DNA from: Halichondria panicea
Lineage: Eukaryota; Porifera; Demospongiae; Suberitida; Halichondriidae
Length of the DNA stretch: 64,000 bases
NCBI RefSeq assembly: GCF_963675165.1
Contig: NC_087380.1
Span: 1,851,803 to 1,915,802 of the forward strand
Direction of reading: 5' to 3'
In this document: in pieces, positions 9,813 through 63,584 of the stretch
How positions within the stretch are numbered: the stretch's first letter is position 1
Layout of the letters: every line of letters begins with the position of its first letter
The notes under the pieces: model-generated
What the model saw: the letters and a program-made list of their open reading frames with translations, nothing else
Database searches by the model: none
Told to the model about the DNA's origin: nothing
Program-made: the position numbers and the translations under genes

Positions 9813-9824
9813 AGTTAGTAGCTC

Positions 9825-16820: not shown

Positions 16821-19800
16821 ATGTCTGATCTCTCCTCCACCGTTAGCCCCCGGGGCCATGGCCCTCCAGGTGAGCTACCTATAATGTTGAGGTTATGAGC
16901 AGCTAGCATATGCATGGATATTGATAATCGTGTCTTTAGTAGACGTGTGGGAAGCTCACTAGTATTTCACTCAGCTCTACATGTTTTGCTGTCGCTATGT
17001 AAACAACCTGTTAGTATAATTTTAGTTGTGTGCTGTCTTGGTACATAATAGACGCTTGTTGAGTGTATGCTGTCACTTTCTGTCGCATTCCATTATAATT
17101 CTTGTGGTTGAAGCTTCTGCCCGCTAACGAGCAATTAAAAGGTGTTGTGTTTCTCTCTCATTGACAGTGTACAGTCCATACATTGTAATACGGTACAATC
17201 TGTCACTAGACTCACATAATTATAGGACTTTCATTGCTTTGTGGATTACCTTTTAGGCATTGTAACTTCCTCTATAGCTATGTCAGTGTGTGATATATGT
17301 TACTACTATCATTGTGGTGCTTGTATGGTCCCATCTCTGCACCCCCACTACAGTGACCCCTCCTCCTCTGTTTCTGTACTTAATACGTGACTTCCGTCAA
17401 TTTTAATGCTTACCAGTTCGTGAACCCTGTACACGATTAGATTAATCTATTGATAGCGGTTTGTGTGTTCCTATCGCGATTATCTGTACATAATGCAATG
17501 ACAGCTAACTTGTTACATGTATCACCGATTTGTGCAAGCATTGTGTTTTCATTAGTATTATAAATAATGTCCTCCTTGCAATAACTGCCAGGTCCACATG
17601 TGAATAATTATCAATTGGCTTGAAGTTGAAAGTGTATTTTTTCAGTGTGTTTTATCATCCCAATGGGAAAATTGATTACTGAGTGTTTTGTTAGGGAGAT
17701 GTGTTACTCATTGACCGTGTTGATCTTAGCAACTGAATACAAGCACAGATGTAAACACCTCACCGTGATGATGTAACTTCACACCACCTTACTTTCAATG
17801 ACTCACACTGTTTGCTGCCTTGCATATACATAGTAACATGCCTTGTTTTAGAATTATCTCACAATGTGGCAGGGAGTATTAAAGTACAACTCACACTAGG
17901 AACTATTATATCATTACTTTAGACCCTGCTTGAGTAGCTTCTCGTCCTGGTGAGTTCATTTTTATATCCTGGCTGGGTTATATCCTGACTGGGAAACCTG
18001 GTGTCTTATCTAGGTAATCATGAATGTACTGTAGGTGTCATACATGTACAGCTGCTTGGAAAGCAATCAAATTGCCTGTAGTGTACTGTACAGAGTTACC
18101 TCTCTATCAGTGTGCTCTCACTATCAGTGTGCTCTCACTATCAGTGTGCTCTCTATCAGTATGCTCCTCTATCAGTGTGCTCTCTCTGTCAGTGTGCTCT
18201 CTCTATCAGTGTGCTCTCTCTATCAGTGTGCTCCTCTATCAGTGTGCTCTCTCTATCAGTATGCTCCTCTATCAATATGCTCTCTCTATCAGTGTGCCCT
18301 ATCTATCAGTGTGCTCTCTCTATCAGTGTGCTCTCTCTATCAGTATGCTCCTCTATCAGTGTGCTCTCTCTATCAGTATGCTCCTCTATCAGTGTGCTCT
18401 CTCTATCAGTATGCTCCCCTATCAGTGTGTGTGTTTATTGTTGTCCTTATTGAGACCATTTCAGTATCTACAAAGCTTTGCCTATCTCTCAAGTGAAGCA
18501 CTAGTAGAGAGTTAGTGTGAGGTGTGGTGTGTGTGTGAGGTGTTAGCTGGTGTGTGTGAGGTGTTAGCTGGTGTGTGTGAGGTGTTAGCTGGTGTAGAGG
18601 TGTTAGCTGGTGTGTGTGAGGTGTGTTGTGTGGTGTTGAGTATGTAACAACTACTTAATTCATGTGCAAACACTTGCCATTGTTAGCATATTGTCACAAA
18701 TTCCATTCACTAATTGTTCCTCACACCACACACACACACACTCACCACCCACACACACACTCACACTCAAGTTTGATACATGTATTCACTATTCGAGCTC
18801 TAAGGACTTTAGGAAAAATATTGAATCCATAGCAATTCTTTCCATGCTGTTTTTATTAGTCATAATTCGTAGCTACTCTTGTTTCTAACTATGGTAGTGT
18901 TTGACTGTTATTGTTTCCCTACCTGTAGCCCCACCCCCTCGTCATCCCGGCCTGTCGCTAAGCAGCTGCCCACCCCTCCCCCCTCGAGTGGCCCCTCGTA
19001 GAGCCTCGGACGTCCCCACTCCACCACGACTGTCCTCCAACAGACCAGGTGAGGGTGACCTCTAGTGTGGGTGGTATCCATCAGGGGGTCAGCTTACAGT
19101 CGAATATTTGTCACTTACTGTGGATAAGAAAACAGTGTATTTGCACTACACATGGACCTGTACTATTGTTAGGTGTAGAATTACAAACATTTGGAGTATG
19201 ATTACCATAACAGCATGTGTGTGTGTGTAGTAGGTACTGTAGTGACCTTGGGCAGACTAACAACTAGCAGTGGCTGTAATGTAGAGGTGGTCTGCTAACA
19301 CAGGTTGAAGCATATAGTATGCTAGGCTTCTTAACACGGCTGTATGTATTATAGAGGATGTCGTAATTATGTATGTGGGGTGGCCTCGATCGCTCTTCAT
19401 TTTCAGTGTTGATTTTCCTATGTAATATAGCAAGAATTATTGGTGTACTAGTACTACCTGTACTAGTAGTGGTGTGTGTGTTACTAGGCATACTATCATC
19501 ACTACATCTTGTGGTCATGAGGAGGAGTGCTACCACACTGCCAAGTTGGCACACTTGCTCGGGAAATTAACACTGATTGATGTTGTATCTTAGGTTGATA
19601 CTCTGCAAGTATGCTTGGGAAGAGGCATGAACTAGAAACCAAGATTTCTGTATATAATTACCGTATTACTAGAATATTTTGCGAGTGAAAAACCTTTGTG
19701 AGTGATTTGCAAATCAGTAGAAAAAGTGACCCTTTGCGATCTAACTACTGTGTTCTGGCAAGGTGTGTATTTACCAGTACTAATTTAGGTTTTACGATTT

Positions 19801-21547
19801 TATTGTTGCAAATTGATCAATTCAACCCTCACAAAGTTCGCATATGTAGAACATTCTAGTAATACGGTATACCAAGCTTCTTAATACAATGGAATGTACA
19901 CTGTATGCAATAGCCGTCATTCTGTTTTCTTGGTAAAATCATTTTCTCTCTGTACATGTGCCAGTTCTCCTAATGATAATTATAACCCCCACCTCCTCCT
20001 CACACACCCACACACACACACAGTGATAAGTCGAGCTCTGACAGTGGACGATGAGATTGGCTATGGTCATCACAATAGGAACTCTCCGATGACTCCACCA
20101 CACCCCTCTATGGGAGGATCTGCCCCGCCCACTCCCAGTCGCCCCATGGCCACTCCTCGCAAGACGAGTATCGGCACACCCTTCGCTAGAGGGTCATTGT
20201 CTGGCCCAGTAGTGCATCCGGAACAGTGAGTGTAGAGTGTGTGTGCGGGGGGGGGTGTGGGTGGGTGAGGGGGGGTGTGGAGTGCCATTGCTCTCTCAAA
20301 AGAATTTTTTTAGTTTCCAAAGGCCAAATTTTGTTTTATTTTGAGCGAGTGTACTGGTAATTAAGTGTGTGTCCTGAATGATTGTGGCACAAGACACTAT
20401 TTGATAGTAGTCCAACAATGGAATCACTATAATTATGTAGCTATATAAGTCGATTTGTATGCCTCCATTTTTACCATGAATCTGTCTGTCATAGGGTGAC
20501 CAAAGAATAGACAAATTTCTCTCTATCGTTACATGTACAGCATGTGTAGTATACACGTAGTAGACTGAGTAGATATTCAGTTGACTGAGTTCTTTATTCA
20601 TTTTCAGGGATATGTACGTGACTACGGATCAGTTTGCCCCCAACTCGTACCACCCCACCCCCTCCCCCTCTGTGGGGGGTGTGCAGGCCGCACCCATGCA
20701 GACACAGGACTGGTACTGGCCAGACATCTCTAAGTGAGTCTGTGCTTCACTATTAAGTTTATCAAGTTTGTATACCTTTAGTTTTGGCCACCATGTTATA
20801 GCCTCTAGACTTTTATGCCATGCTGGTTTGTGTGTATGCTGAGTGTGTGTTTGTTATAGAACAACTATTATATCCCCTCACACACACATACACAAACACT
20901 GTGTAAACACTGCCTTGCATGTATATAATTACTGTATCATTAAGGCAGACTTTCACATACATACAACGTGTACATACATACACACACACTGTATCGAGTA
21001 TAGTAGCTGCATGTATCATTGAGCCCCACACACACACACACACACACACTTCCACCCCCCACACACACACTTCCACCCCCCACACACACTTCCACCCCCA
21101 CACACGCACACTTTTACTTCCACACGCACACACTTCCACCCACCCCACCCCCCCCACAGAGAGGAGGTGACGGAGATCATGAAGGACATGCCTGACGGAG
21201 CCTTCCTGGTACGAGACGCTGCACGGGTACCTGGCTACTACACTCTCACACTACGCAAGAGCGGCGTGAATAGACTCATCAGAATCATGCACCGTGACGG
21301 TCACTATGGTTTCGCCGAGCCCCTAGAGTTCCCGTCAGTCATGGCACTCATAGACTACTATCGCACGCACACGCTCGCCCCGTATAGTCCAAAGTTGGAT
21401 ATTACTCTGGGGATTGCTGTGTCTAAGGACGTGTGGTTACAGGCGAAGATGCCAGACGTGGGGGAGAACGGTGGGAGAGAGGTGAGTGTTGTGTGTGTGT
21501 GTGTGTGTGTGTGTGTAGGGGGCGTAGGGGAAGACGGCGGGAGAGAG

Positions 21548-21581
<34 letters not shown>

Positions 21582-24500
21582 GGGGCGTAGGGGAAGACGG
21601 CGGGAGAGAGGTCTGTGTGTGTGTGTGTGTGTGGGTGTGTGGGTGGGTGTGGGTTGAATACTGACAATCTGTCGCAATTGTTTCAGATCATTTTCAGCCT
21701 CTTACAATGTACATGGAGCATTCAGTTTTTGGTAGAAAGCTTGTCGACAGTAGTACTAGGCTGCATTTATAGGCGACAAACAAGAATTTAGTGACTTCAC
21801 CCATACCTCCCCCCTCCCTGACCCCTTTAGTCTGAGGTGACGGTTGAGAGGATGATGGAGACATTGCGTAACCTGGAGATAGAGTTGAAGGAGATGAGTA
21901 CAAAGTACAACTCACTCAAGCAGCAGTTCGAGGCGACCAATGAGGTCAGTTACACATCACCATGGTTATGGGAGTACCGAATAATGATCCCTTACTAGTT
22001 GTAGAACTCGAAAATTGTACATTTTATGATAATTTTTTTTTTGTTTAGTTTATAACTAGATACGGTTGACCTTAGATACATGTGCTACTGCATGTTGTTT
22101 TCTTAATTCGATTTTCGTGTGTTGCAATTTCCTTGAGTTGGTAGATCAACAGAAGCCTTTCCATGGCGACCCGCTTGTGCTTCAACTAAACACACTAGTA
22201 CTTGTGTGGGTTGAGAGGTTGTTTCTGTGACATTCTTGGTTTGCTAATTCCATGAGCAAGTCTTCCCTTGATATTAGGCTACCCTCGTTGATAGCTTGAC
22301 CTTTACTTTGGTTGGGCAGTAAGTATACGGTATTTATGCTTTTCCTTTTACCAGGAGTCCTGCTTTTACTAATAGCTAGCCAGTATCTCTGACTTTCTTT
22401 ATACATGTAATTGCATGTCTTATGGCGAGTATTTTTTCACTCCACCCCTCCCACCCACCCACACATACACAGGAGATCCGCAACATGCGTATCGACATTG
22501 CTGCTCAGAAAGAGATCATCACGATCATGGAGGATGGGCTACAGGAGCATGAGAGACACCACGCACAGTGCAGCCAGACACAGAAAGCATCGTGAGTCAG
22601 AGTCTGCATGGCTGCTTGTGGGAGCAAAACAATTGTTTACTTTGAGTGCCCATAACTTGAGTCTAGAGTGTCCAATTTCAAAACAAAAACATTCATTTTG
22701 TAGCTCTCAGGGAGCTCAATGATGCGTTTAAAATTATCCTTTCACTACAGAAAATGTTTCTGAGATAATTAAATACTTGTGGCTAATAATAAATTATTAT
22801 ATAGACTTGTATCTTCTCCTCCTCTAATCTTTATCTCTGTACCACACATTTGACAGGTTATTAGCGAATTTTGACCTCCTCCGCCGACGTTACCGTATCC
22901 AGAGAGACAGTCACGATGATCTCAACCAGAGGCTACGCCGCTCGGAGCTCACCAAGAACTATCTGGACATGGAGCTCAACAACCTCAAGCCTAGCCTCAA
23001 GAGATCACAGGCCGAAAAGGGCACGATACTCAGGTGGGTGTGTCACTCTGTGTGGGGTATGAGGGGGCGGTTGTGTCACTCTGTGGGAGGTATGAGGGGG
23101 CAGCTTTCCAGGGCACCCTTCAGGGGCGGGCCTAGAAATATAGAAAAGAAGCAAGACAATCCCACTTGAAACCCGAAATTTCACAGGGTGCATGGTAGGA
23201 GTTAGTTGGATGTGTTCAATAAGTTACAATCTATGAATATACGTCATGTATCTCATCCCATCCCCTCCCCTTGTAGGTTTCTCCAGCAGCGTGGTTGGCG
23301 TAACGATGAGATCAATGCTCGTATTGAGCGTATTGAGGCTGACTCTAGTGGAGTGGAGGAGGACGAGGGACTCTACGCCACCTACGCCATGCTGCACACC
23401 TATCGCAATGAGTGAGTGGGGGAGGAGGGACTGGGTACAGTGTACAACTGGTTATCTCGAAGCCTTAAAATTATTGATTAGTGGAAACAGGCTCTCGTGT
23501 TTATAGGGGAGGTGGGTATTTGTAGGTAAGACATTGATTTTATTGCTATTCACTAATTATTTCCCATATTTACGCGATCAGAGGCTAAATGTTTCATTTT
23601 GCTGGCAGAGGAGGCTGCAATTCGAGAGAGGTGTTTATTAGGCCTACTGGCACCCCAGCAAATTCAGTTATTTTCACCTGAACTCTAAACTCTGCCATGA
23701 GAAAGTCTTACTAAAGTACTAACAAGCTGCTATTTACCACGGAGTGATAGATACCAGTCAATGTTGCCACGTGCAGCAGATAGGGTCAAAGTTCACTACT
23801 AATTGAGAGCGTCTTCTATTGCACTAAAAATGGGCTGTAAGGAGGCTACTATTTGAGTGCGGCCTTTATACAAGAGCGGCCACTAATCAAGAAAATACGG
23901 AATGCTAGTGCTGTTTTTGCTCCATCACTTTTTGACTTTTACATAATATGTGTGTTTCACTTCACCTCCAGGTCCGACTACCAGCGGATATCCCAGGAGC
24001 TGAGAGAGCGTGGTGGGAAGAGACCACCCCCTCTGAGAGAGGACGACCCTCGGAGAGTGGGAGGGGCCAGACCAGAGACCACCATCACTACCCCACCGGT
24101 AGGAGCAATGAGAAGAATTTGTATGTAACTTTGTCCTTCCTAGGAACTTAACTAACATACATAATAACAACCTTTTTCACCTCACTTGAAATGTACATTT
24201 TAAAAACAAAAAAAGAATGTACCACTAATTGACCTCAGGTATGTGTACATATAGTAATGGTCAGAGCTGGGCATGCTCACAGTAAATGAATGATTGCAAG
24301 TAATAATGGGGGAACCTGGCTGTACAAAATCCTATAATCATTTGTATCTGAGGTGGAGAATGGTATGGCAAAAGCTTGTCAATTGCTGTACCATCGGGAA
24401 GCAGCAGATAGATTGTTTGTTGCTGAAGCTACTACATGTTTGGCCCGAGGGTTGTTGATAGATTTCAATTCACTGGAGATGTGTCGCTGCTTATAAAGCC

Positions 24501-27248
24501 AGCCCAAGGGAGCACTGTCTAGATGATCTCACGATGAATTGAAATAATTTGTGAAAAGCCGACTACCTAAAATTCAGACCCAATTGCTTCAGAAGTTCAG
24601 ATTACTGGTAGATCTAAAGTGCTGCCACATTATGCTGTCGACTTAAACGCCTAGGATTCACTTAAAGAAGGCTAAACACATCAATACAGTGGTTTTCCTT
24701 ACCTTTGCAGGCTATACTGCAAGAGCACTGCAACCACAATGTAGTAAATATAGTATTTTGGTTGGCTTCTGTTAGTAACAAGCCAACAAAATTACTTGCT
24801 ATTATTATGGCCTGCAAAATGCAAACTGTAACTGGTTTTAATTTGGCAATTTCAAAACTGCCAAATTAGTGGACCTAATTGCTGTAGTAGCCTAAGACGT
24901 CAAATTAATCAAATTCTAATAGCTCACTCGCCAAATAATTATAATAGCCACTAAATGTTCCAGGTGTCTCATATTTTGTCTGACTGAAGTGATGGTAGCT
25001 CTGATGGTAGCTCAGCTAACTTGTTGCTTGGTTCATTGTGGCAAAATGATATGAGCTAAAACTTGTATAAACTTGCTATAGGGAGTGGAGGGCCTGTATT
25101 TACTAGGCTCAAAATTGGATATTTCCGAAAGCAGCTTGTTGACCTCAAGCATTATATAGAAGGAGTGCTGTGAAAGTAGAGTAGTAACCCCTTGAGCTGT
25201 GTGAAAAGTCTGCAATAGCCAGTATTTAACCCAATTGATTTTTGTGATGTGGGTGGACTAAAATAACACAGACAGGTAATCACTACATTGTGGTTGCAGT
25301 GCTCTTGGAGTATAGCCTGCAAAGGTATGGAAAACCACTGTACAACGCTCTAAAAATAGATGTAGGTCTTGCACAACCAATCATTCATTTACAATATGAA
25401 ACTGTGAGCATGCCCAGCTCTGACCATTACTATATGTACACATACCTGAGGTCAATTAGTGGTAGTTTCTTTTTGTTTTTAAACTGATATTTTAAGTGAG
25501 GTGAAAAAGGTTGTAGACTAAGAGTGTAAATTCTAATCACATTTTTGTATTACTATATAAACACAATGAATGCTACAAGTTACACTTGTATTCTTCCCCC
25601 CCCCCCACCCCCCAGCGTGCCCTCCCCCCTGGTCCGAGTGAGAAGCCCCCTGCCATGAGACCGAGGGTGGCCACAGTTGCACAGTTACCACCACCCAGGG
25701 TCGTCGACTACCCTCACTTCAATGTGAGTCACTAGCACACACATAACTGTATGAATGGCCAGTAGTAGTCTAAATGATGCTGTGTACAACGGTGTGCTCT
25801 ATTAGTGTTCTGTCCTCATTGGTTGAATATACCCTAAACTGCTTGCCTTAAATCATTGCTTGAATGTCTATAGTTGTTCATTAGTTTGATAGAGAGTGTA
25901 CAGTGCTGCCTTGTGTACGTGTATGTCTCCTTCCTTGCAGTCTCAACAGCTGATCAGCTACAAGGATCTGAAGGTGTCACGTGACCTGCCGCACTTTTTA
26001 GAGTCAGCCTGGATGAACCCAAGCATCTCGTGAGTCAACCAATATCTCTTGGTGCAGTTATAGCTATACTGAGTATCCCTGTCAGTAATGATCCCCAAAT
26101 ATACATGTGCAATGCATGTGCACATTTGCTATGTATTTCCAAGTACAGTAGCCCACATGTATGTACCATCCAACCACTGTGTAGACCATAATCTAGTTAG
26201 CCTACCCCATTGGCTTGTACGAGAAGACATTCAGCTGTTCCAGGTGTTTTTACTTAGTGGTGTGTGGTTGCTAGCTTCCACATATCCAGTGTTAAATTAC
26301 CGTATAGCGCAAAATTTTCGAGGCACTTATGTTTCGTGGATTGGCCTCTAAAAGCCATTTCGTTGCACAATGTTTGTGGGATGGCTGCTTACCGGAAGCC
26401 ACGCCTTAAATCTTTGCACGTTATAGCAGGTAATTTAACAATTAATTTTTCGTGGACTTAATTTTTGTGACCCACGAAATCTGCGAAAATTCCGTGCTGT
26501 ACGGTATATCACATTGTAGCTATGTGTTCATTTTGAGCATTGCTTGTTGAGGCGATGTTTGGGCACCTTTCATACCGTATAGTGGTGGCATGGAGTGATT
26601 GTTGGTACCATTTACTTGTACAATAATGTACCTTATTTTGAAGTCACCCCCCCCCCCTCTCCTCCCTCAGGAGAGATGGTTCTCGAGACATGCTCACTGG
26701 TAAATCCAACGGGACCTTCCTGGTTCGACCTAAGGGTAATGTGGAGGAGTCCTCAACCATGCCTTGTCACACACACACCATCGACATTGTGTAAGTAAAG
26801 GAGAGACATAGTTCATTGCTGTGCCAGTGTGGTTTCTATATATATATAGAGAGAGAGGCCATTAGCTAGATGAAAATCACAATTAATTTATTTGTAACTT
26901 GACAATGAGCCTTAATCGGTAACTGTACACTGTACATGCATGTTGCTCTGAAACCCACTTATTACACCAATAGTTTGTTTTTGTACATTGTATACATGGT
27001 TGCTTGTATCAGATTATGTGATTTTTGATCACTTTCCTCTTTCTCCCCTGTGCAGAGATGGAGGCAGGTTCAAGAGGATCCCTGTGTACAGAGACCCTGC
27101 TGGGGGGTACGGATTTGCATCACCATTCGAATTTGACTCTCTGCTCAGTTTAGTTCTGTACTATGCCACCAACACGATGGAGAAACACAACCCTGAACTG
27201 GAGACAATGCTTAAATACCCTGCATTCCATGTGGACAGGGGCCGTTAG
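16821..27248 (+). CDS. Class IA PI3-kinase regulatory subunit, short p55/p60-like form
   Basis: Fourteen exons fit in phase: 16821-16869, 18929-19048, 20024-20225, 20608-20733, 21160-21481, 21831-21944, 22473-22591, 22857-23033, 23277-23411, 23972-24098, 25616-25723, 25941-26029, 26671-26790 and 27056-27248. They encode 666 residues. Order: a proline-rich N-terminus ('[13 protein letters not shown]', SH3-ligand like); N-SH2 starting 'WYWPDIS' with FLVR Arg at about 184; a coiled-coil iSH2 at about 274-440 with '[12 protein letters not shown]' and '[14 protein letters not shown]'; a proline linker; and C-SH2 with FLVR Arg at about 582. p85-type subunits bind and restrain p110 through iSH2 and recruit it to phospho-YxxM sites through the SH2 domains. 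No SH3 or RhoGAP exon lies before the start: exon 1 runs straight into the proline-rich part, as in p55/p50 and insect p60. Confidence 0.92.
16870..18928 (+). other. Intron 1 of the PI3K subunit gene
   Basis: This is the longest 5' intron (2.06 kb). Apart from the minisatellites at 18104-18640 I see no exon, repeat element or RNA gene in it. As a large first intron beside the promoter it is a natural place for enhancers, but no motif stands out. Confidence 0.6.
18104..18430. repeat. Minisatellite 'CTCTCTATCAGTGTG' (12-15 bp unit, over 20 copies)
   Basis: Tandem copies of CTCTATCAGTGTG and CTCTATCAGTATG variants run through intron 1. Because many units are 12 or 15 bases, three overlapping open frames appear ([13 protein letters not shown]); these are not genes. 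A second repeat, 'GGTGTTAGCTGGTGTGTGTG', follows at 18530-18640. Confidence 0.95.
19661..19867. mobile_element. MITE, CCGTATTACTAGAATATT family
   Basis: The ends CCGTATTACTAGAATATTTT and AACATTCTAGTAATACGG are inverted repeats flanked by TA on both sides. The interior is shared with 3325-3508 and 28020-28190. It lies in intron 2 of the PI3K subunit gene. Confidence 0.9.
20711..21440 (+). other. N-terminal SH2 domain of the PI3K regulatory subunit
   Basis: This is split over exons 4 and 5. It starts [11 protein letters not shown] and contains '[10 protein letters not shown]', 'GYYTLTLRK', '[15 protein letters not shown]' and '[11 protein letters not shown]', in the order of p85 N-SH2. The βB5 Arg of FLVR and the βD His/Tyr region that binds phosphotyrosine are present. 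Confidence 0.93.
21482..21652. repeat. Tandem repeat duplicating an exon end and splice donor
   Basis: After the real donor (AGAGAG|GTGAGT at 21481/21482), the sequence 'GGGGAAGACGGCGGGAGAGA' plus 'GGTCTGTGTG' with a long GT run occurs twice more (about 21520 and 21588). It copies the last 25 or so coding bases of exon 5 with a degraded donor (GTCTGT). Confidence 0.85.
21831..23411 (+). other. iSH2 coiled-coil region
   Basis: Exons 6-9 encode uninterrupted long helices: '[18 protein letters not shown]', '[17 protein letters not shown]', '[18 protein letters not shown]', '[16 protein letters not shown]' and '[16 protein letters not shown]'. In p85 this antiparallel coiled coil binds the adaptor-binding domain of p110 and touches its C2 domain. 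Confidence 0.88.
24167..25514. mobile_element. 1.35-kb foldback element in an intron of the PI3K gene
   Basis: The ends are inverted repeats about 115-130 bases long. Left: ACAACCTTTTTCACCTCACT, then 'GACCTCAGGTATGTGTACAT' and 'GTCAGAGCTGGGCATGCTCA'. The right end carries the complements of all three. A second, inner inverted pair links 24690-24760 ('TTACCTTTGCAGGCTATACT') with 25280-25345. There is no transposase frame. It fills intron 10, just before the C-SH2 linker exon. Confidence 0.85.
25960..27248 (+). other. C-terminal SH2 domain of the PI3K regulatory subunit
   Basis: Exons 12-14 encode '[10 protein letters not shown]', '[18 protein letters not shown]', '[19 protein letters not shown]', '[19 protein letters not shown]' and '[15 protein letters not shown]', the order of p85 C-SH2 up to the normal C-terminal position. 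The FLVR Arg is kept. These exons are the part copied in front of every receptor downstream. Confidence 0.9.
26300..26504. mobile_element. MITE with CCGTATAGC ends in the PI3K gene
   Basis: CCGTATAGCGCAAAATTTTCG at the left faces 'CGAAAATTCCGTGCTGTACGG' at the right; TA flanks both ends. The interior has several 'TTTCGTGG' words typical of this family. It is in the intron before exon 13. Confidence 0.85.
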
Positions 27249-27372
27249 TAACTGAACTAGCAGCTGTACAGTATTGTATGTGTATAGTGTAGGATTCTTT
27301 TTCTGTGGGTGCATGTACACTTTTTTGATGTGTGGAAATTTCAATTTAAACTTCCTGTTGTCATCATAATAT

Positions 27373-27378: not shown

Positions 27379-27413
27379 GTCAACCAATAATTGAATGCAT
27401 GCATGAGGACAGC

Positions 27414-32214: not shown

Positions 32215-33035
32215 TCAACCAACATCTCTAGCTCTTGAGTGTATAGTCGGCTATACTGAGTATATCCCTGTCAGCCCAACTTCCACCCCATTACTACCAA
32301 TACATGTACTATTTCTTAGGGCAGGTGCCCACATTGGTTTACCATTCCAACCACTGTAGACATACAGCTGTTTACTTGTGGGTATGTGTGTGTGTGTGTG
32401 CTTGCTTGCTTTCAATCTGATAGAGTGCTGAGTGTGTTTATTGTGAGCATTGCCTGTTGTGTTGTGCCTGAGGCAATGTTTGTGCACATAGCCTATAGGG
32501 CTGTGATAATTTAGGAACTCTAGCAAATGGTGCGCGTTGCCTTTGTTCATTTAATTGTCAATCTGCATGTTCACTGTGTGTGAAATACCTTAGTGTGGTT
32601 CATACATGTTACTGTAGCTGTAGTGTCTGTCTTCATAGAGGCTAGCAACATGTTCATTACAAACATATCTGTACTTGTCAATAGTCTAAATTGGTACTGT
32701 ACATGCAATGCTGTACGCTGTTCAGCCTACCATTTGACGCCAATAGCTTATTGTGCACATACAAAGTCTTGCAGTGAGAAATGCATCAGATTTATAATTA
32801 TATATGGGTGACCACATTTACATCGGTCATGGTATTCCCCCGTGCAGAGATGGAGGCAGGTTCAAGAAGATCCCCGTGTACAGAGACCCTGCTGGGGGTA
32901 CGGATTTGCATCACCATTCGAATTTGACTCTCTGCTCAGTTTAGTTCTGTACTATACCACCAACACGATGGAGAAACACAACCCTGAACTAGAGACAATG
33001 CCCTGCATTCCATGTGGACAGGGGCCGTTAGTAAC
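32215..33035 (+). pseudogene. PI3K regulatory subunit 3' fragment in unit 2
   Basis: 32215-32280 matches the end of PI3K exon 12 and its intron ('GAGTCAACCAACATCTCT', 'GGCTATACTGAGTAT'). 32848-33029 copies exon 14 of the C-SH2 ('GGAGGCAGGTTCAAGA', 'TTCGAATTTGACTCTCTG', 'GAGAAACACAACCCTGAACT'). One G is lost in 'GCTGGGGGTACGG', which shifts the frame, and eight bases are missing near the end. Exon 13 is absent. It cannot encode a working SH2 domain. Confidence 0.85.
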
Positions 33036-33677
33036 TGAACTAGCAGCTGTACAGTATTGTATGTGTATAGTGTAGGATTCTCTTTCTGTGTATGTGGTGC
33101 ATGTATGTGGATCAATGTGGGTGCATGCTGGGTGCATGTACATTTTTTGATTGTGGAAATTGATAATTCAGACTTCCTGTTGTCACTGATCATAATTATG
33201 ATCACTAATAATTTGGAGCATGCATGCATGAAGACAGCATGAAGAAGTTACAAGGTAACTGTGTCTCTTGGCTGGTCTATTTGACTGGAGCTGCTCAGCT
33301 CCTGCTAGTGTGTGGAGAGGGTATGTTTTACTTGTGCATGATCTCTGCCAGCAATATTCACTATTGGATTCCATCACAATCTCTCTTCCATACAGAGATA
33401 GCAATCTGTTTTGATCTCAATCTCACCAATGGAAACATTGTCTACACTGCTGGATCTCCTGACAACAGACCTATCTTTTCTGGAGCTACCTCACACGTGC
33501 AATCCTGGCTACACTCTCGCTGGAGATAGCCCGAGGGTCTGTGTGAGTGGAGGGATCTGGAGTGGGTCAGCTCCAACTTGTCAAGGTGAGTTCTATTAAT
33601 TATAGACACTGTTTTTGGAGGTATCTATGAGTTAGAAGCCCAAAGGCACTGAATGCTGGCCGGTGACCAAGCCTTGC

Positions 33678-45783: not shown

Positions 45784-45795
45784 TACGAGATGATG
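45784..45795 (+). other. YxxM motif (YEMM) in receptor B tail
   Basis: TAC-GAG-ATG-ATG within 'IQPYEMMEMGHEYEEV'. The motif is conserved although the upstream exon is frameshifted. Confidence 0.8.
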
Positions 45796-53400: not shown

Positions 53401-56400
53401 GTCCAGCCATGCAGGAATGTTCAGCACTGCTGGAGTTTCTTCTTTGCAACCATGCAGGTTTCAAAGTTCGAAGATTCTGCGTTCCTAGACCTAGTCCTCG
53501 ACCTCGTGATGCATGTCAATTCTGCTTCACCATAGCACTATAGAAGCGGCTCTTTTTGCTGGGGGCTTGAGCTGTTTTGCAGCAGTGTAGAGGCGAGCTT
53601 CTTTGGCTTGGTTGTAAGGCCGAGGGTATAGACCACCGTGGAGGGCTGCTCGAGCAGCAGTTACACTGAGTAGTGGGGTGGGGCTGTCTCTTCGCAGCAG
53701 TAGTAAGTGGGGTGGGACTGTTTCTTTGCAGCAGTATAGTGAGGTGGGGCTGTTTTGCAGTGGTTTCAGCGTTGGAACTCCAACAATTTTGTGTCAAGCC
53801 ATTCGTCGGTCATGCCAATCTTGTACGCTGCAGATACTGGCGTCTAGAAGAGAAAAGAGATGGAGCTGTGCATGTCTAGAGTTAATTGTCTCTGTCATCT
53901 TTTTGTGCAGTGTTACTAAGATAGTGTTATGTTGCTATGCCCTCGGAATATAAACTATAGTTATAACACGTGCACTCGGGATGCATGGCATATATCCCTC
54001 ATGCCAGTGTTATATAACTATAACTTAATGTTGTATACACACAGCTGTGGACTGTGGGGCTCCTCTGTCTATTACTAATGGATCTCGTGGGATACCAACA
54101 ACCACAACATTCACAGGGACAGTGACCTACAGCTGTGTCACTGGATATTGGATCTCTCCAGGAGTCACCACAGCAACGGCTACCTGTATGGCTAATAGGA
54201 CCTGGGGACCTCTACCAACTTGTCAACGTATGTGAAATTTCTACCAAACTTCTGCATTGACATTGTTCTCACCCACATAGTTTTGGATTGTGGCTCTCCT
54301 CCCACTGTTCTCAATGCATCTCCTGGAACACCCACCAGAACAACCTACCAAGGGACAGTGACCTACACCTGTGACAGTAGATATAAAGTCTCCAATGGAG
54401 TCACCAAAGCAACGGCTACCTGTCAGGATAACGGAAACTGGAGACCTCTACCAACTTGTACAAGTATGGTTCAGGGATTCTTCTAACTTCAGAATTGTAA
54501 TTATATACATACAGTTGTGGACTGTGGCCTTCCTCCCACCATTATCAATGGATCTCCTGGGACACCAACCAGCACAACATTTGAAGGGACAGTGTCTTAC
54601 ACATGCAACAATAGATATTACATGTCGGGATCAGCCACTGTGACTTGTGAGGCTAGTGGGAGTTGGAGCACAAGACCAACTTGCTCAGGTCTGTGAAATA
54701 TAATTATAATAATTTAGTGGTGACATGATTGTTAATAGCCATCTGCAATGATAATCAAATTGAAAATGGTTACATCGACTATGCTCCTAATACCACACCG
54801 AAAACGGAGGGAACCATTGCTGCGTACTCGTGTGTGTCTGGTTACCAACTGTCTGGTGTGAAATTTAGCATTGATTACATGTGTACATGTACACATAATT
54901 ATAGTTAGCTGTTGACAGGGAGCCCTTACAAAATAATAATTATTCCTCGGTGCGCATGCGCTAGTGAGGTATACGGTAGTGTGTTTGTGTCTGTGTGTCT
55001 GTAGACTGCTACAGCTACTCAAGGATTAATGAAGTTCAAGTAAGAGTTTCTATTTCTCGTTATCTTAAAATTGAAGAGTGCCTTAAGAGACTGGAGCTGC
55101 ACTTATGCTTACAACGAGTGCCGCTTATACAAATCGTTTGCCTATGGTATGCATAAGTCATTTTCTCCTGCAGACATTGTGTGTCCTCCTCTACCAACCA
55201 TTACCAATGGTATGATCTCCTACTCTCCTGATGTCACCCCTGACTATGACCTGGGAACTAATGCAACCATCACTTGTGAGGCTGGGTTCTATCTTGAGGG
55301 TAATGAGGTACGAGTGTGTATGGATGATGATGGAATGTGGAGTGGTCGGGAGCCAAGCTGTGTCCGTAAGTCATCCGCTTGAACCAACTGTAACATGCAG
55401 CATGTATTTGCAGAGCCTAAGTAACTGCCTGGTACTCTAATTCAAGCATTCACTGGTGCACTAGCTAGTGTAAGCATTATTCTCACTACACACAGCCATT
55501 CAGTGTCCTCCCCTTGAACTAAATTGATCATGCAGCTATTGAATGTCCTCCTCTACTGACCGTTACTAATGGAGTTATCACCTACGCTCCCGGCAACACA
55601 CCTGCCTATGGTCTGGGTATTGTGGCCACTTATGCCTGTGACGCTGGGTTTGTTCTGGACCTCTCCCTGGGAGGATCTGAGATGAGAACTTGTGTTGATA
55701 ATGGACTGGATGCTATTGGAATTTTTGATAGACTGGCTCCAATATGTGCCCGTAAGCTAAGTCATTAGCTACCTTATTGATTATAAACGGGTACTAATTT
55801 TAGCGAATTTGTATTTAACGCTAAATTAAGTACGTTTAATAAAACGCAATTAAAAAATTATGAATCTCATTTAAAAAAAATGTTTTTCCCTTACAATAAT
55901 GTAATGTAATGGAAAGCTAGCTTTTTTTCATCTGTATCTGACTCCAAACTTTCCATTCAACCTTAAAACTCATACAGTAGACTCTCGCTATTCCGGCTCC
56001 CTGAAGTACGGCCACCTCGATATACCGGCCATTTGCCTTGGCACGGAATGCTAGCTATATGTTTACTGCACAAAACTCACCCTGAAGTACGGCCACTCGC
56101 TATTCCGGTTATATACCGGCCAGTGCCAAACAAGGTTTTCAATGTAATTTTATACGTGTATTACGGCCGGATATGACGTTTTGGGTGTGGTTTAGCAAAT
56201 AAAATTGAATTACACTTAAATAGAGAACAAAATGATTCATTATCCTACATTATCCTCGAGACAAGAACCGCAAAAATAGTTATTAGATTCGAGGTAAGGT
56301 CGTTTTTAAGCCGCGGCTATTTCCTGAGCTACAGCCACCTCGCTATTCCGGCCAAGCTGCATGGTCACCGGATTAACGAGAGTCTACTGTACTTGTACCC

Positions 56401-57982
56401 TAAAAACAGAGAAAAATTTGAAAAATTACTACCCGTCTATAATAGTAACATTAAGGTAGTCTAAAAAAGTTTTTGTATTTCATTCATATCTTTATTTTTA
56501 ATTGGTGATTATTTTACTGTTAATATCCACTTTGTACAGCCATTGAATGTCCTTCTTTACCGGATATTACAAATGGCATGGTATCCTACGAATCTGACAA
56601 TTTGGATAGCTTAGCCCTGGGAGCTGTGGCCACCTACAGCTGTACCGCTGGGTTCTTCCTGGATGTTTCTGAAGGAGATGAATTTAGGGTCTGTTTGGAC
56701 AATGATGGAATGGGCACCATTGGAGTGTGGAGTGGTCAGGAGCCAAGCACCATTGGAGTGTGGAGTGGTCAGGAGCCAAGCTGTGTCTGTAAGATATCAG
56801 CCTAAGCCGTTTAGCAATTGCATTGTGTGTTTCGCAATATTTTTACCTAGCTATCTAGTATCTTTACGTTTCGCATGGTAATATTATCGCTATCTAGTAC
56901 TTTCCAGTCAAGTGATTCATGAGCTGTTTGTAATTTTCTCAGCCGTTCCCCCTCCTGTACGCTCAGTGTTGTTCCAACTCAGACTCACAAACATCAACAA
57001 CTGTCCTGACTGGGTGGTGAGTGCTAAGAATTTCCTAAAGCAACAGTAATATTTTTCTTTATAATTTATGCAGGACCAGGATGGGAGGATAGAAGCTGTA
57101 ATGAGTGAGTTTGCTACCGAGGTGGAGAGTCACTGTGGGTGTGGTTTCTTAAGCATGGTCATGACTGCCCCTCTCTTCCGCTGCTTCCCTGGGTCGGACA
57201 AAGCTGTCACATTCCGAGCCACTCTAACCGATTCCAGGCTCCTCACTCCCATACAGGACTGGATACAAACCAATGGATTCATTCCCATTCAGAATGTACT
57301 GATTGAGGTGGACAAGTCTTGTCCGGTGCAGGTATCCAGCTTTACAGACACAGAGTGCACCAACCAGCCTACAGCTGCAGGGAGCAGTGACATAGCCGCT
57401 GTGGTTGGGGGAGTAGTGGAAGGAGTTGTAGGAGTGGTCATTGTCCTCATCATTGTGGTTGGTATTGTTGTCATAGTGATTGCTGTACTGGTGTTCAAAA
57501 GCAGGAGAGAGAAGCTGACCGTCAACAAAACAACGAAGTGTGTCAATCAAACATTTTATCATTCATTTCTCTATACTTATAGTTTATTGTGTTACAAAGG
57601 TTATGCCATTCTGCAATTTACTATCCTGCCATTCCCTCTCAGACCTGATCTACCACCAGTGTCACTAAAGGGTGTGGTCAACACTGGTGAGATACAATCG
57701 TACGAGATGATGGAAATGGGTCACGAATACGAGGAAGTGTCCAAGTTCCAACGAGCCATCGGTGGAGAATATGAGATCATTGGAGCACCCTCACAGACAA
57801 CTGGCTCCGAGAGCAAAACTCTTATAAAGACCGAGCTATCACCACCCACTCCACCCACACCACAACCCTCACAAGCGACTAAGCCTGCCAGAAATGATAC
57901 TGACTTTACAGAGTGCATTGCTTACAGCAGTGCACGACCACCCACAGTTGCCCCCCACACCCTACAGGCTTATGAACTATAA
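47422..57982 (+). CDS. Receptor C: Ig-like/multi-sushi type I membrane receptor with YxxM tail
   Basis: The signal exon begins at 47422 (MKKLQGDC). The Ig-like exon is 47564-47935 ('SLICHTDLVACC', 'LWRYPNG', 'SPTGSYCCIIP'). About 27 complete sushi exons follow: one near 47984, fourteen in a 512-bp repeat array (48213-51735), then others near 51786, 52013, 52249, 52499, 52773, 53008, 54044, 54281, 54514, 55173, 55534 and 56540. The membrane-proximal exons are 56942-57016 and about 57074-57538 with the transmembrane helix; the tail is about 57643-57982. Ectodomain introns are phase 1 on both sides, so exons can be gained or skipped without frame loss. I see no frameshift. The protein should exceed 2000 residues. 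The tail has YEMM, EYEEV, EYEII and a final AYEL. A sushi copy at 54737-54860 is cut by a repeat insertion. Confidence 0.8.
47564..47935 (+). other. Ig-like domain exon of receptor C
   Basis: It encodes 124 residues with the core 'SLICHTDLVACC' (B-strand Cys), 'GLWRYPNG' (C-strand Trp) and 'SPTGSYCCIIP' (F-strand Y.C). Three potential N-glycosylation sites start the domain (NIT, NNT and neighbours). The corresponding exons are 27578-27949 (A) and about 59212-59575 (D); receptor B lacks it. Confidence 0.75.
48208..51735 (+). repeat. Seven tandem copies of a 512-bp two-sushi module
   Basis: Copies begin near 48208, 48721, 49233, 49745, 50257, 50769 and 51281. The spacing is exactly 512 bases between copies 2 to 7. 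Each holds sushi exon X ('LICSDLPLVTNG' to 'SGSPPTCQ'), a short intron, sushi exon Y ('ITCSDLINPTNG' to 'SGSSPVCQ') and a second intron. Introns are as conserved as exons and differences are single bases (for example R/I in SGGRW/SGGIW, D/Y in NGDVF/NGYVF). The last copy is diverged at its Y exon ('RVCVSGGKWDGAAPHCP'). Confidence 0.95.
53225..54040. other. Long intron of receptor C with a short tandem repeat
   Basis: Around 53660-53765 a roughly 34-bp unit with 'GTGGGGTGGGGCTGT..TTGCAGCAG' is repeated about three times, and the motif TTGCAGCAG also occurs nearby. The 53500-53900 part differs in style from its surroundings and may be an insertion. No gene is seen. Confidence 0.5.
54865..55075. 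repeat. Repeat that truncates a sushi exon in receptor C (inverted copy at 34190-34330)
   Basis: The sushi exon starting 'AICNDNQIENG' at 54737 breaks off after 'YQLSGVKFS'. The next bases include 'CGGTGCGCATGCGC', 'GTGTGTTTGTGTCTGTGTG' and 'GACTGCTACAGCTACTCAAG', whose reverse complement occurs at 34210-34300. The exon is missing its last two Cys positions. Confidence 0.7.
55975..56389. mobile_element. pogo/Tigger-like MITE
   Basis: CAGTAGACTCTCGCTATTCCGG at the left faces 'CCGGATTAACGAGAGTCTACTG' at the right, with TA on both sides. CAGT.GACTCTCG..AAT.CGG ends are characteristic of pogo/Tigger elements. It lies in a receptor C intron; a half copy lies at 28790-28895. Confidence 0.9.
57701..57712 (+). 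other. YxxM motif (YEMM) in receptor C tail
   Basis: TAC-GAG-ATG-ATG within 'IQSYEMMEMGHEYEEV'; a second motif, EYEII, follows 27 residues later. This is the clearest p85-type SH2 ligand in the window. Confidence 0.87.
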
Positions 57983-59069
57983 CATGAAACTGCAAACTGA
58001 TAGAAATTGTGTTGACTGCTCTAGCAATTTAATGATACAGCTTGTATTTGCATGCATAGGCCTTTTTTTTGGCTATTACAAACTTATGTTCAAAGATCTT
58101 TGGTCTGCATTTGCATTTACACGTTCTTGCATGGGTAATGTCATCACCAGTCCTTCATGAATATGAATATGACAAGGTTTCCTCATTGTAGTAGCCATTC
58201 CCACCACTGTGTGTCTAGACACATTGGTATTTGTGAGAAGATAGTTTTTTGACAATCAGTTGTGTGCTTAAGCAGAAGGAGTGGTTTGTGCTTGCTTTCA
58301 ATATGATAATTATAGAGTGCTCTAAGTGTTTATTGTGAGCATTGCTTGTTGTGTTGCCTTGAGGCAATGATTTTGCACCTCTCAATAGCCAGGGCTGTGA
58401 TAAGATATAGAACTCCAGCAAATGGTGCATATTGCTATTGCTCCATCCTAGTCAATCTGCTGATACTATATACCATGTAGATCTCATATATATATAGACT
58501 ACCTGTATACTATAATTATTGTGTTGGCCAATCATATATTTTCATAATTATAACCACCCATGCACCCCACCTCAGGAGGAGATGATTCTCGAGACATGCT
58601 CACTGGCATGGTAAACCTTTCCTGGTTCGACCCAAGGATAATGTGGAGGAGTCCTCAACCATGCCTTGTCATACACACATACCACCGACATTGTAAGTTA
58701 AAGGGAAGAGCAGTGCATTAATTGCATTGCTGTAGTGACTGTGTCTATAGAGAGAGGCCATATGAAAAATTGATTGACTACAAGTATGTATCTTGTACTG
58801 GTCAATAGAGCTTCAATTGGTACTGTACAGTTCTATGCCTTATATTGCTTTGAAAATTGATGCCAATAGCTTGTTGTATGATATGATACAGAGTCTAAAT
58901 GATTTTCTTTCTGTGTCTATGTGCTCAAGAGTCCTCTTATGCATGCATGTGGGTGCATGTACATTTTATACTTCCTGTTGTCATTAATTAAAGTGAATAC
59001 ATGTAGTCTACATGTAGATTCTAATAGATCTACACTAGAATTACCAATAACTGCATGCAAGAAGACAGC
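57983..59069 (+). pseudogene. Spacer with PI3K regulatory subunit 3' fragment in unit 4
   Basis: 58577-58690 is a worn exon 13 ('GATGATTCTCGAGACATG', 'TTCCTGGTTCGACC', 'GTGGAGGAGTCCTCAACC') with internal insertions. Exon 14 is gone, but the 3' UTR piece 'GGGTGCATGTACATTTTAT' and 'ACTTCCTGTTGTCATTAATT' remains before the receptor D start. 57983-58440 matches 46064-46510, so the spacers of units B and C were copied together. Confidence 0.8.
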
Positions 59070-61516
59070 ATGAAAAAGCTACAAGGTGACTGTGTCTCTT
59101 GGCTGGTCCTTTTCACTGGAGTTGCTCAGCTCCTACTAGTGTGTGGAGAGGGTATGTTTTAACTGACCTGCTATAAATGAACATAGACTGTACATAATGA
59201 TATGCATACAAGAGTGTACCTGTCTCTGGGATCAACCAACATCACCACTAACAACACTGAGATCCTCATCACTGATGTTGGAGATGATGTTCGGGATGGT
59301 CGTCCTTCTCTCATCTGTCACACTGACCTTGTGGCCTGTTGTACACCCAGTGAGACAATGGCAAAAGGTATTGGACTTTGGCGCTATCCAAATGGGACTC
59401 GTGTTCCTGGTGGATCAGGAGCATCTCGTCCGTATGTGTCATTAAGAAATGTTCAATCCATTAAACTGGCACGTAGAGACAGTGTTAACCCCCCTCCCCT
59501 GAGTCCAACTGGTTCCTACTGTTGTACTATACCAACTACTGGAGGAGAGATGATCTTCTGTGCCAACCTGGGTGAGTGGTTCTGTAATCTTGGATTCCAT
59601 CCACAAATCTGATTCTGTTTCCAGTTGTGTGCCTGTCTCTCCCTGCCCTGAACAATGGAATAGTCTCATACAGCCACTTAACACTGGGTCTGAACACTGT
59701 GGCCATCTACACCTGCAACACCGGCTACACTCTCAATGGAGGCACCACCAGGACTTGCGAAAGTGATGGAGTGTGGAGTGGGTCAGATCCATCTTGTCTT
59801 CGTAAGTGAATATTCACTTTTGTGCTGTTTGAATGTTTTTTTGTGTTTCATACTGAGATAGCAGCCTGTTCTGACCTCACTCTCACCAATGGAGACATTG
59901 TCTACACTGATGGATCCCCTGACAACAGACCTATCGGCTCTAGAGCTACCTACAGCTGCAATCTTGGCTACACTATCACAGGAGGGAGCACCACCCACCA
60001 GGACCTGTGTGAGTGGAAGGATCTGGAGTGGGTCACCTCCAACTTGTCAAGGTGAGTTCTGTAACTCGTACACAGTTTGTATTTCAAATAATTATGTATA
60101 GACACAAGATCGACTGTTGCTCCACCCACAACGTGCTCTGACCTGACTAATCCGACCAATGGAATGACTGCTTACAATATGGGGACTGCTAGTCCAAGAC
60201 CAGTGGACACTGTGGCCACCTACACCTGTGTCACTGGCTACACTCTCAATGGAGTCACCACCAGGACTTGTGGGAGTGATGGAGTGTGGAATGGGTCACC
60301 TCCAGTGTGTCAGCGTAAGTGGAATGGAATGTGGACATTTTTATTGAGTGTACCTGCATGCTTCTCTACAGGTATCTGCTCTGACTTACCCTTACTGACC
60401 AATGGGATGATTGGTGGATCCACTAACAAGAGACCAGTGGACACTGTGGCCATCTTCAGATGTAACACTGGATACACTCTCAATGAAGACGCTACTAAGA
60501 CTTGTGGAAATGGTGGAATGTGGAGTGGGTCATCTCCAACATGTGAAGGTCATAATTATTAGTTAAGTGGTAGTACATGCACCGTGACTCCAGCTTATTC
60601 CTACAGCCATTATATGTCTTCCTCTATGGGCCATTACCAATGCCATGATCTCCTACTCTCCTGATGTCATGCCTGACTATGACCTGGGAACTGAGGCAAC
60701 CTACACTTGTGAGGCTGGGTTCTATCTTGAGGGTAATGAGGTACGAATGTGTATGGATGATGATGGAATGGACGCCATTGGAGTGTGGAGTGCCAAGATG
60801 TGTCCGTAAGTTATCAGTGAAAGTGTGTAGGTCACTGGTACTGTACAAACCCGAATATGTGTATATTGTTTGGTCATATGCAATTAACTTATCACAGCCA
60901 TCACTTAATTGTCCTCATCTCCTTGTTCGTACCAACACTTCAATATCTTACCCTCCTCGCACTAGTTCACTTTTCCCCTATGGAACACAAGCAATCTACT
61001 CCAATAATAATTGTATTGTCCGCAGGTATCACATGTTCTGCTCTCCCTGATATTATGAATGGGACCATCAATTACCTTAGAGGTACTACTGCACCATATG
61101 ACTTTGGAACAACAACTACTTATCAATGCAACTATGGACATGTGTTAACAAGTGGAGACAGTGAGAGGACTTGTACTGGTGATGGTAGCACTCCTAGTGG
61201 TAGTGGTCTGTGGGATGGTGCTGCTCCTCAATGTCCATGTATGCTATATTATTGCATTATCGGATTACATGATAATGTACACAAACAGCTGTGGACTGTA
61301 GTACTCCTCCGTCTATTATCAATGGATCTCCTGGGATACCAACAACCACAACATTCACAGGGACAGTGACCTACAGCTGTAATGATGGCTATGCACTCTT
61401 TGGGATTGCTACAAGTACTTGTCAGGCAAATGCAACTTGGAGCAGACCACCATGAATGCAAAGGTATATGTGCACATTCATTGTTTATATGTGCATATTA
61501 CATGTACCATACACTA

Positions 61517-61700
61517 CCGTATAGCAGGTATATTTCCAGGTTATCAACTTTCGCGGAAATGCCTTTAGAAATGTTTTCGCAGATTTAATTTTCGCGGAAT
61601 AGCAGCATTTATGAAGCATTATGCATGCATGCAATATTGGATATAAATGTTCGCGGTATGCTTAATCAGCGAAAACCACGAACATATATACTGGCTATGC
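61517..61700. mobile_element. MITE of the CCGTATAGCAGGTATATTTC family in receptor D
   Basis: The left end CCGTATAGCAGGTATATTTC is identical to that at 41944. The right end is worn ('CACGAACATATATACTGGCT'). It is intronic, between the 61289 and 61838 sushi exons. Confidence 0.7.
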
Positions 61701-63314
61701 AATACAAAAATTTACCTGGTATATAAGCATGGCTTGTATTTAATATAGTAGCTGCAACTGATTATATATAGCGGTTGACTGTGAGCCGGCCCTTACAGTT
61801 TCTATTAACTGATTGTACACATTACAGGCACTGTACATTTATTAGTCTGTCCTGATCTGATGGATCTAGTCAATGGAAGTATTGCTTATGATATGGAGAC
61901 CAAAGATAACAGACCAGTGAACACTGTGGCCACCTACACCTGTAACACTGGCTACACTCTCATTGGAGACAGCACTAGGACTTGTGGGAGTGATGAATTG
62001 TGGAGTGGATCGGATCTAACGTGTGAAGGTTGGTGGAAAACGTTTACACTGTGTAGTAACAAGTGTTGTTTCTCCTATAGTTCTTATGTGTCCTCCTCTA
62101 CCGGCCATTACCAATGGCATAATCTCCTACTCTCCTGATGTCCCCCCTGACTATGACCTGGGAACTGAGGCAACCTACACTTGTGAGGCTGGGTTCTATC
62201 TTGAGGGTAATGAGGTACGAGTGTGTATGGATGATGATGGAATGGACGCCATTGGAGTGTGGAGTGGTCAGGAGCCAAGCTGTGTCCGTAAGTTTAGGAA
62301 CTGTATTATTTCCCCAGTCGCCCCTCCTCCTGTACGTCCAGTGTTGTTCCAACTCAGACTTACCAACATCAACAACTGTCCTGACTGGGTGGTGAGTGCT
62401 AAGAATGTCCTAAAGCTAAAGCAAACTAACAATTACTTATCTCTCTATACAGGACCAGGATGGGAGGTTAGAAATTGTAACGAATGCGTTTGCTGCCGAG
62501 GTGGAGAGTCATTGTGGGTGTGGTTTCTCAAGCACGGTCATGACTGCCCCTCTCTTCCGCTGCTTCCCTGGGTCGGACAGAGCTGTCACATTCCAAGCCA
62601 CTCTAACCGATTCCAAGCTCCTCACTCCCATACAAGCCTGGATACGGATTCATTCCCATTCAGAATATACTGATTGAGGTGGACAAGTCTTGTCAGGTGC
62701 AGATATCGAGCCTTGCAGATATAGAGTGCACCACCAACCTGTAGCTGCAGCGATCATTGACCTAGCCACTGTGGTTGGTGGAGTGGTGGGAGGAGCGGTG
62801 GGGTTGATCCTTCTGGTGGGCGTTGTTGTCATAGTGATTGCTGTACTGTTGTTGAAGAGTAGGAGACAGAAGATGATCGTCCACAGAACAACAAAGTGAG
62901 TGAATCAATAATTTTACTGGAGCATTGAAGTGCAAACCCTCGGCGTTAATTTGTGATTTGATGTAGTCTACAGCCTCGAATCAAAGCCGCGTGAACATAC
63001 ATATATACATAGGCCACATGCAGCTTACTCACTTTTATTCGAAAACGAAACATCAAAAAATAGCTAGCCAACTTTACCTTGTTGTGTTGGGATAAAAACA
63101 GTGCTATCTCAGTTTACACAGAACGACAGACAGACTGACTGACCGACTATATACTATAAAACTCGTGGCGCCCGCGGCGCATCTCTGGTTAATTATGTAT
63201 CTCTCTACTGTTTTGAATTTGTACAAATTAACTATATCTACATTTCCCCTCCCCAGACATGACCTACCACCAGTGTCGCTAAAGGGTGTGGTCAGTACTG
63301 GTGAGATACAATCA

Positions 63315-63326
63315 TACGAGATAATG
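63315..63326 (+). other. YxxM motif (YEIM) in receptor D tail
   Basis: TAC-GAG-ATA-ATG within 'IQSYEIMEMGHEYEEV'. The tail region is otherwise that of receptor A, with GTPPLHT instead of EYEII. Confidence 0.8.
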
Positions 63327-63584
63327 GAAATGGGTCACGAATACGAGGAAGTGTCCAAGTTCCAACGAGCCGTTGGTGGAACACCACCCTTACATACAAG
63401 TGGCTCCGAAAGCAAGTATGTTATAAAGACTGAGCCATCACCACCCACTCTACCCACACCACCAACACCACAAACCTCACAAGCGTCTAAGGCTACTAAA
63501 AATGATACTGAGTTTACAGAGTGCATTGCTTACAGCAAGTGCACGGCCACCCACAGTTGCCCTCCACATCCCACCAGCTTATGA

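Follow-up and report, generated by a model that had tools for sequence, protein, structure and literature searches.

The stretch of DNA analysed here, referred to as the window, comprises 64,000 bp of the genome of the sponge Halichondria panicea (C4:1851803-1915802, + strand) and carries a gene for a regulatory subunit of phosphoinositide 3-kinase (PI3K) of the p85 type, followed on the same strand by a series of receptor genes with tyrosine-bearing tails. A first-pass annotation had read these as four tandem receptors directly behind p85, with conserved YxxM motifs as likely docks for its SH2 domains, and had suggested that receptor and partner were co-amplified. We searched the genome (131.5 Mb, 39 contigs) with the parts of this system, and all genome-wide counts given below are lower bounds. 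Window coordinates are used for the p85 gene, whose first letter in the window is 16821, and for receptors 1 to 4. The genes are as follows.

16821..27248, + strand: PI3K class IA regulatory subunit gene (p85/p55 type), nSH2-iSH2-cSH2 (exon model, Pfam, PDB match, database copy P0005)
26671..26790, + strand: p85 exon A, the first half of C-SH2, with FLVR (exon model)
27056..27248, + strand: p85 exon B, the last coding exon and second half of C-SH2, which recurs at 34 fossil loci (genome search)
27399..31418, + strand: receptor 1, with N-terminal domain, three Sushi domains, membrane-proximal domain, membrane span and tyrosine tail, open throughout (exon model, Pfam, P0001)
31107..31145, + strand: YKVM...YEEV of receptor 1 (sequence)
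33224..46062, + strand: receptor 2, span approximate, frameshift near 45390 in the membrane-proximal exon, YEMM tail at 45784 (sequence)
47422..57982, + strand: receptor 3, span approximate, membrane-proximal exon intact, YEMM tail at 57701 (sequence)
59055..63584, + strand: receptor 4, span approximate, membrane-proximal exon with broken frame and a stop, YEIM tail at 63315 (sequence)

Judged by its domains and matches, the gene at 16821-27248 is a class IA PI3K regulatory subunit, as first annotated. The exon model covers 18930-27248, and its product passed the Pfam cut-offs for two SH2 domains (PF00017) and for PI3K_P85_iSH2 (PF16454), with PI3K regulatory subunit alpha (p85alpha) as its best PDB match (E 1.3e-59). 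The FLVR arginine is found in both SH2 domains, as FLVRD in N-SH2 and FLVRP in C-SH2, and the product gave no Pfam match to SH3 or RhoGAP. Database copy P0005 of this protein begins with the peptide encoded at 16821, and sponge relatives occur in Ephydatia muelleri, Dysidea avara and Geodia barretti. The physical adjacency claimed for the pair also held: the p85 stop codon (27246-27248) is followed by 150 bp and then by the ATG of receptor 1 at 27399.

The exon model of receptor 1 equals database entry P0001 but for two residues at one splice site. Read by eye, a signal peptide-like start and a hydrophobic span are followed by a tail roughly 120 residues long that contains seven tyrosines, an arrangement that suggests a single-pass type I membrane protein. 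Pfam recognised three Sushi stretches in receptor 1 and nine in database protein P0002, and gave no match to the N-terminal domain of receptor 1. A structure model of receptor 1 had a helix at 498-526, with a mean predicted local distance difference test score (pLDDT) of 31.9, and was otherwise unusable and not used. The tandem order of the four receptors stood up. Receptors 2 and 4 lose their membrane span and tail to the frameshifts in the membrane-proximal exon, so that two of the four window tails belong to genes broken as assembled. Database model P0003, which covers the receptor 2 ectodomain, ends where the receptor 2 frameshift falls. An open reading frame of 300 residues with collagen repeats (Pfam Collagen) lies on the opposite strand inside the receptor 2 span (38275-39177, - strand). 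In receptor 3, about six tandem copies of a 512-bp unit with two Sushi exons lie between 48050 and 51680, and the repeat array aligned to itself one unit on at 97% identity, which points to a recent lengthening of this ectodomain. A fusion receptor with its own C-SH2 was also considered, in the form of database model P0004 (45.8-49.2 kb of the window), which joins the receptor 2 tail, a C-SH2 remnant of the third unit and the receptor 3 ectodomain. It was rejected because the model begins within a tail and shows no signal peptide on inspection; it is probably an automatic chimera rather than a read-through transcript.

All four window tails carry YxxM at the positions first reported (YKVM at 31107, YEMM at 45784 and 57701, YEIM at 63315), and each has YEEV nine residues further on. 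The block around the motif, described as otherwise constant from its initial GEIQ, is less so, as receptor 2 has SEIQ. Being paralogues, these tails amount to a single observation, and the motif by itself carries little weight, as YxxM strings number 122 over the six reading frames of the window. A whole-genome search with the receptor tail gave 36 matches representing 33 loci. Of these, 25 form one + strand array of about 310 kb (C4:1.88-2.19 Mb) that starts at p85, and the window holds only its edge; the remaining eight are outlying (C4:122-234 kb and 848 kb). The first motif of the array tails is YxxM in 15, YxxI in seven and YxxV in one, with the tyrosine lost in two. The membrane-proximal exon is intact in 16 array units, broken or cut short in five and without a match in four, and the 16 intact units comprise ten with YxxM, five with YxxI and one that has lost the tyrosine. 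In the outlying tails the first motif is YEMI or YEII in all eight and YxxM in none, whereas YEEV is present in 33 of 33 tails. The comparison of tails suggested in the first-pass annotation as a check on YxxM, made here on paralogues, therefore went against the motif as a conserved feature. The first motif retains its tyrosine in 31 tails, every one of which has M, I or V at +3, encoded by ATG, ATT, ATA or GTT, and the constraint at this position is for a hydrophobic residue (M, I, V), not for methionine. The ratio of nonsynonymous to synonymous substitution rates (dN/dS) over the 33 tails is 0.106 in 13 core codons, 0.310 in the whole proximal part and 0.527 in the distal part; the first value, which indicates purifying selection, marks the tyrosine block as more than chance.

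Such tails may also have a meaning with no reference to p85. Their tyrosines could act as YxxPhi endocytic signals or as docks for Src-family or Syk-type SH2 domains, with the exchange of methionine at +3 for I or V near-neutral; YEEV resembles the pYEEI optimum of Src-type domains. The restriction of +3 to these residues and codons fits this explanation, as does the history of the methionine on a tail tree from which the first motif's four codons were left out (one long end branch, that of a frameshifted tail, L063). The methionine requires 4 changes on this tree (4-7 as the 5-95% range over 200 bootstrap trees) and was hence gained or lost several times. However, most array tails have methionine and no outlying tail does, and its clustering on the tree exceeds that in each of 500 shuffles, a pattern to be expected among near-copies. 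We regard this explanation as possible, although short of probable. When the motif columns are included, array and outlying tails form two separate clades (100/100).

Parts of the p85 gene recur throughout the array. Exon B is found at 34 further loci, all on the + strand (C4:1.885-2.296 Mb), and these fossils mostly alternate with receptor tails, with a few doublets and with seven fossils beyond the last tail. Six at C4:2.218-2.296 Mb lie well past the last matching receptor tail (2.193 Mb), and receptors that are secreted or have a different tail might stand behind them. By sequence comparison a C-SH2 sequence precedes each of the four receptors of the window, and only the first is that of a working p85. 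The others are represented by the remnants below; exon B was not found in unit 4 of the window.

32848..33031, + strand: fossil exon B of unit 2, ends approximate, frame broken (sequence comparison)
46654..46706, + strand: exon A remnant of unit 3, with deletion, frame broken (sequence comparison)
47031..47223, + strand: fossil exon B of unit 3, frame open, its exon A broken (sequence comparison)
58576..58700, + strand: exon A remnant of unit 4, ends approximate, frame broken (sequence comparison)

Exon-B copies at 21 of the 34 fossil loci were read in detail, and 13 of the 21 carry a net frameshift. Where exon B is open, the exon A beside it is broken, partial or not found; the sole copy with a full-length ungapped exon A carries a stop in that exon, and both C-SH2 halves are open in none of the 21. 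Distinct substitutions in the fossil copies number 30, 29 and 34 at codon positions 1, 2 and 3, an even spread that gives no sign of protein selection. One same base differs from p85 in 20 of the 21 copies (the site is absent in the 21st), which suggests that the copies go back to one source and that p85 is no recent donor. Gene conversion from p85 was rejected on this ground as the cause of the fossils' low divergence; conversion among the copies could be the cause of their likeness. The stretch before the fossils of units 2-4 is common to those units and not shared with p85 (alignments of at least 150 bp), which would put the initial breakpoint immediately before exon A. Co-amplification, as first proposed, thus survives in part: copies of the p85 last exon lie among the receptors, and the same holds for a second p85 gene described below, but the genome search found N-SH2 at just two places, one per p85 gene. 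With no copy read open in both C-SH2 halves, a working amplification of p85 was rejected.

The copies of exon B are strikingly alike, and we delimited the following element by comparing them.

27136..27290, + strand: low-divergence stretch of exon B plus 42 bp past the stop, median pairwise divergence 4.7%; candidate receptor promoter or 5' regulatory element (copy comparison)

Compared with p85 in 20-bp windows over the 21 copies, exon B together with the next 42 bp shows 86-99% identity, with 10 of the 12 windows at 93-99% and the other two at 89 and 86%. The edges are sharp, as the flanks of the block drop at once to 29-69%, and receptor exon 1 stands at 50-81%. Mean pairwise divergence among the copies is 6.8% in exon B, 26% in the spacer for the 15 copies with alignable exon 1 or 36% for all 21, and 56-57% in the intron, which is to say unalignable. 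In the ten copies with alignable receptor exon 1 of the same length, exon B diverges by 6.2%, compared with 12.1% at the synonymous sites of exon 1 (24 codons). Median divergence over the 25 array units is 9.9% for the tail coding sequence and 39% for the intron before it.

This low divergence points to constraint at the DNA level or to conversion among the copies. Because the fossil exons are less diverged than the surrounding non-coding DNA despite their mostly broken frames, the last exon of p85 may hold the promoter of the receptor, and as exon B stands just before the receptor start, a promoter inside it is the reading of the constraint that we tentatively favour. A promoter or 5' regulatory element in this position could alone hold the pair together, would explain why the exon is found in receptor copies, and would account for the linkage without any SH2-YxxM partnership. 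The 150-bp distance to the receptor, the sharply bounded identity to p85, the divergence below that of synonymous sites and spacer in spite of the frameshifts, and the indifference of the substitutions to codon position are all in keeping with it, as are four copies of the last exon of the second p85 gene, 95-100% identical at the protein level, in the array of that gene. However, the synonymous-site comparison rests on 24 codons, and conversion among copies could likewise hold them alike. Copies of exon A, which is farther from the receptor, are fairly alike too where they match, six of the 21 copies have no alignable receptor exon 1 within 320 bp behind exon B, and one stray exon copy of the second p85 gene is only 73% identical. 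On balance we hold the promoter to be a real possibility and still a doubtful one.

The second p85 gene (p85-2, L093) lies head-to-head with that of the window and has its N-SH2 at C4:1812551-1812820 (- strand). Its N-SH2 stretch and one C-SH2 exon were read; the N-SH2 is 54% identical to that of the window gene, and the two N-SH2 exons are about 60 kb apart. Downstream of p85-2, on the same strand, are 12 tail loci of another receptor family, family B (tail ...HDYEELSELEEEAAYEVMDPPADYQLTACVAY...), whose membrane-proximal domains are about 29-36% identical to those of the receptors described so far, family A. Extra copies of the p85-2 last exon are found at 1803900, 1793238 (split), 1766363 and 1759895. 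Family B comprises 47 tail loci, weak matches included (search E up to 1), and the exon search found no p85-2 last-exon copies near the 35 that lie elsewhere. A diverged copy of this exon, the 73% identical one, stands at C4:3671792-3671956 (- strand), and the N-SH2 search gave no match on the stretch of C4 around it. The pattern Y-E-[hydrophobic]-M-D occurs in two of the 47 family-B tail loci (1739550 and 1775327), both in the cluster adjacent to p85-2, a count from one exact pattern that other letters beside the methionine would escape; genome-wide the pattern is not enriched over a reversed control (24 vs 44). Eight family-B tails read directly (L094-L096, L098-L102) have YEVM in two cases and YEVV in six.

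The reading we favour, at somewhat better than even, is that the window lies at the 5' edge of an array in which genes for single-pass receptors, grown from the 3' end of p85, follow one another in tandem, with the linkage a by-product of array formation and YxxM docking plausible for a subset of members. An ancestral receptor would have stood directly behind p85, and a tandem duplication would have started just upstream of the p85 C-SH2 exons and ended behind the receptor. Repeated rounds, probably by unequal exchange, would have left C-SH2 exon copies, dead where read, among the receptors, and the linkage would be a trace of this process and not of selection to stay together. The tail itself may be a multi-tyrosine platform for SH2 proteins, with YEEV as its constant site and beside it a membrane-proximal Yxx[M/I/V] and, in many copies, YEII. 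If they are phosphorylated, the 15 array tails with YxxM could bring in the adjacent p85 together with p110, and p85 docking by a subset of receptors is plausible; those with YxxI or YxxV may use other SH2 proteins, or be sorted by way of YxxPhi signals.

Several observations weigh against this reading. Exon B is still open in seven of the 21 copies read, in three of them at full length. All 15 family-A YxxM motifs lie in the p85-linked array (15/25 vs 0/8, Fisher 0.003, with copies not independent), and the sole two family-B YxxM tails found adjoin p85-2. YxxM confined to p85-linked clusters would favour functional coupling, though again the copies are not independent. For both families together the count is 17/37 p85-linked tails vs 0/43 others (Fisher 1.6e-7), a value that overstates the evidence, since the copies are related, the methionine is at different sites in A and B, and the B counts come from one pattern.

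Functional coupling would make these dedicated PI3K receptors, with YxxM docking the neighbouring p85 and the two genes kept together by their joint work. The presence of YxxM in every window tail and most array tails and its absence from the outlying ones would be expected under this explanation, which also draws on the receptors behind the second p85, where the YEVM pattern is found in two of 12 tail loci compared with none of 35 elsewhere. However, in eight of the 25 array tails +3 is I or V, and two more lack the tyrosine of the first motif (five and one among the 16 intact), and the invariant motif is YEEV rather than YxxM. Moreover, the YEVM of family B aligns by eye with the second motif of family A, not the first, and p85 itself was not amplified. 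We consider this explanation of dedicated PI3K receptors unlikely. A more elaborate scheme, which we think quite improbable, combines promoter and docking: receptor arrays would have arisen on two occasions, each at the 3' end of a PI3K regulatory gene, since the receptor promoter lay inside the p85 last exon, p85-driven expression would have followed, and a methionine dock at +3 would have arisen only in the chained copies, linkage first and wiring after.

Upstream of p85, at 7969-14387 of the window, the minus strand carries open reading frames of 376, 190, 701 and 220 residues, several of them repeat-rich and none with a Pfam match at E 0.01. Protein searches restricted to shared exact 5-residue words found no receptor relatives outside H. 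panicea. The proteins that passed, 4 of 6864 candidates in one search and 3 of 69 in another, all came from that species, and the receptor array appears so far to be known from it only. H. panicea is already in use for immunity work (PMC8242945, PMC12345144). The literature searched, mostly outside subscription papers and including the available parts of PMC12345144, PMC8242945 and PMC4617754, contained no report of this array or of p85-linked sponge receptors.

The attachment of large receptor families to a signalling pathway is seldom visible in DNA. In this case exon fossils would mark a PI3K regulatory gene as the place where a receptor array arose, and the second p85 with its other receptor family repeats the pattern. 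If the shared exon were the promoter, it would provide a clear-cut example of genes tied to each other by an overlap in function. Tails that resemble one another but for a single residue (+3 M vs I) are natural material for testing how selective p85 is in an early animal lineage.

The p85 gene agrees with class IA PI3K regulatory subunits (p55gamma/p85 type) in the order N-SH2, iSH2, C-SH2, with the coiled coil that in this class binds p110 in the middle, and in the FLVR of both SH2 domains, and differs in its want of an SH3 or RhoGAP match and in having a diverged second p85 gene head-to-head with it. CD28 and ICOS are YxxM co-receptors, and the sponge receptors resemble them as predicted single-pass receptors with tyrosine tails in which YxxM may dock p85 in some copies. 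In contrast, the sponge receptors are Sushi-rich, carry several further tyrosines, do not conserve YxxM and form a tandem array; the likeness is one of features, with no sequence relation claimed. The immunoreceptor tyrosine-based activation motif (ITAM) has the consensus Yxx[LI]x6-12Yxx[LI], which the sponge tails recall in their paired tyrosines with hydrophobic +3, as YEEV-x10-YEII in many array tails and YEMI-x6-YEEV in outlying ones. A strict ITAM was rejected, as the +3 of YEEV is V in 33 of 33 tails and tails of the receptor 1 type have no YEII. Allorecognition receptors, put forward as one candidate role in the first-pass annotation, are marked by strong polymorphism between alleles and by their control over fusion or rejection; the sequence analysed represents a single haplotype, and any recognition role of these receptors would be putative. 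Among lineage-specific expansions of immune-type receptors, the sponge SRCR genes, as reported, offer a parallel in their large single-strand tandem array with broken members (PMC10855680). The H. panicea array differs from these in its domain make-up and in carrying exons of an unrelated signalling gene.

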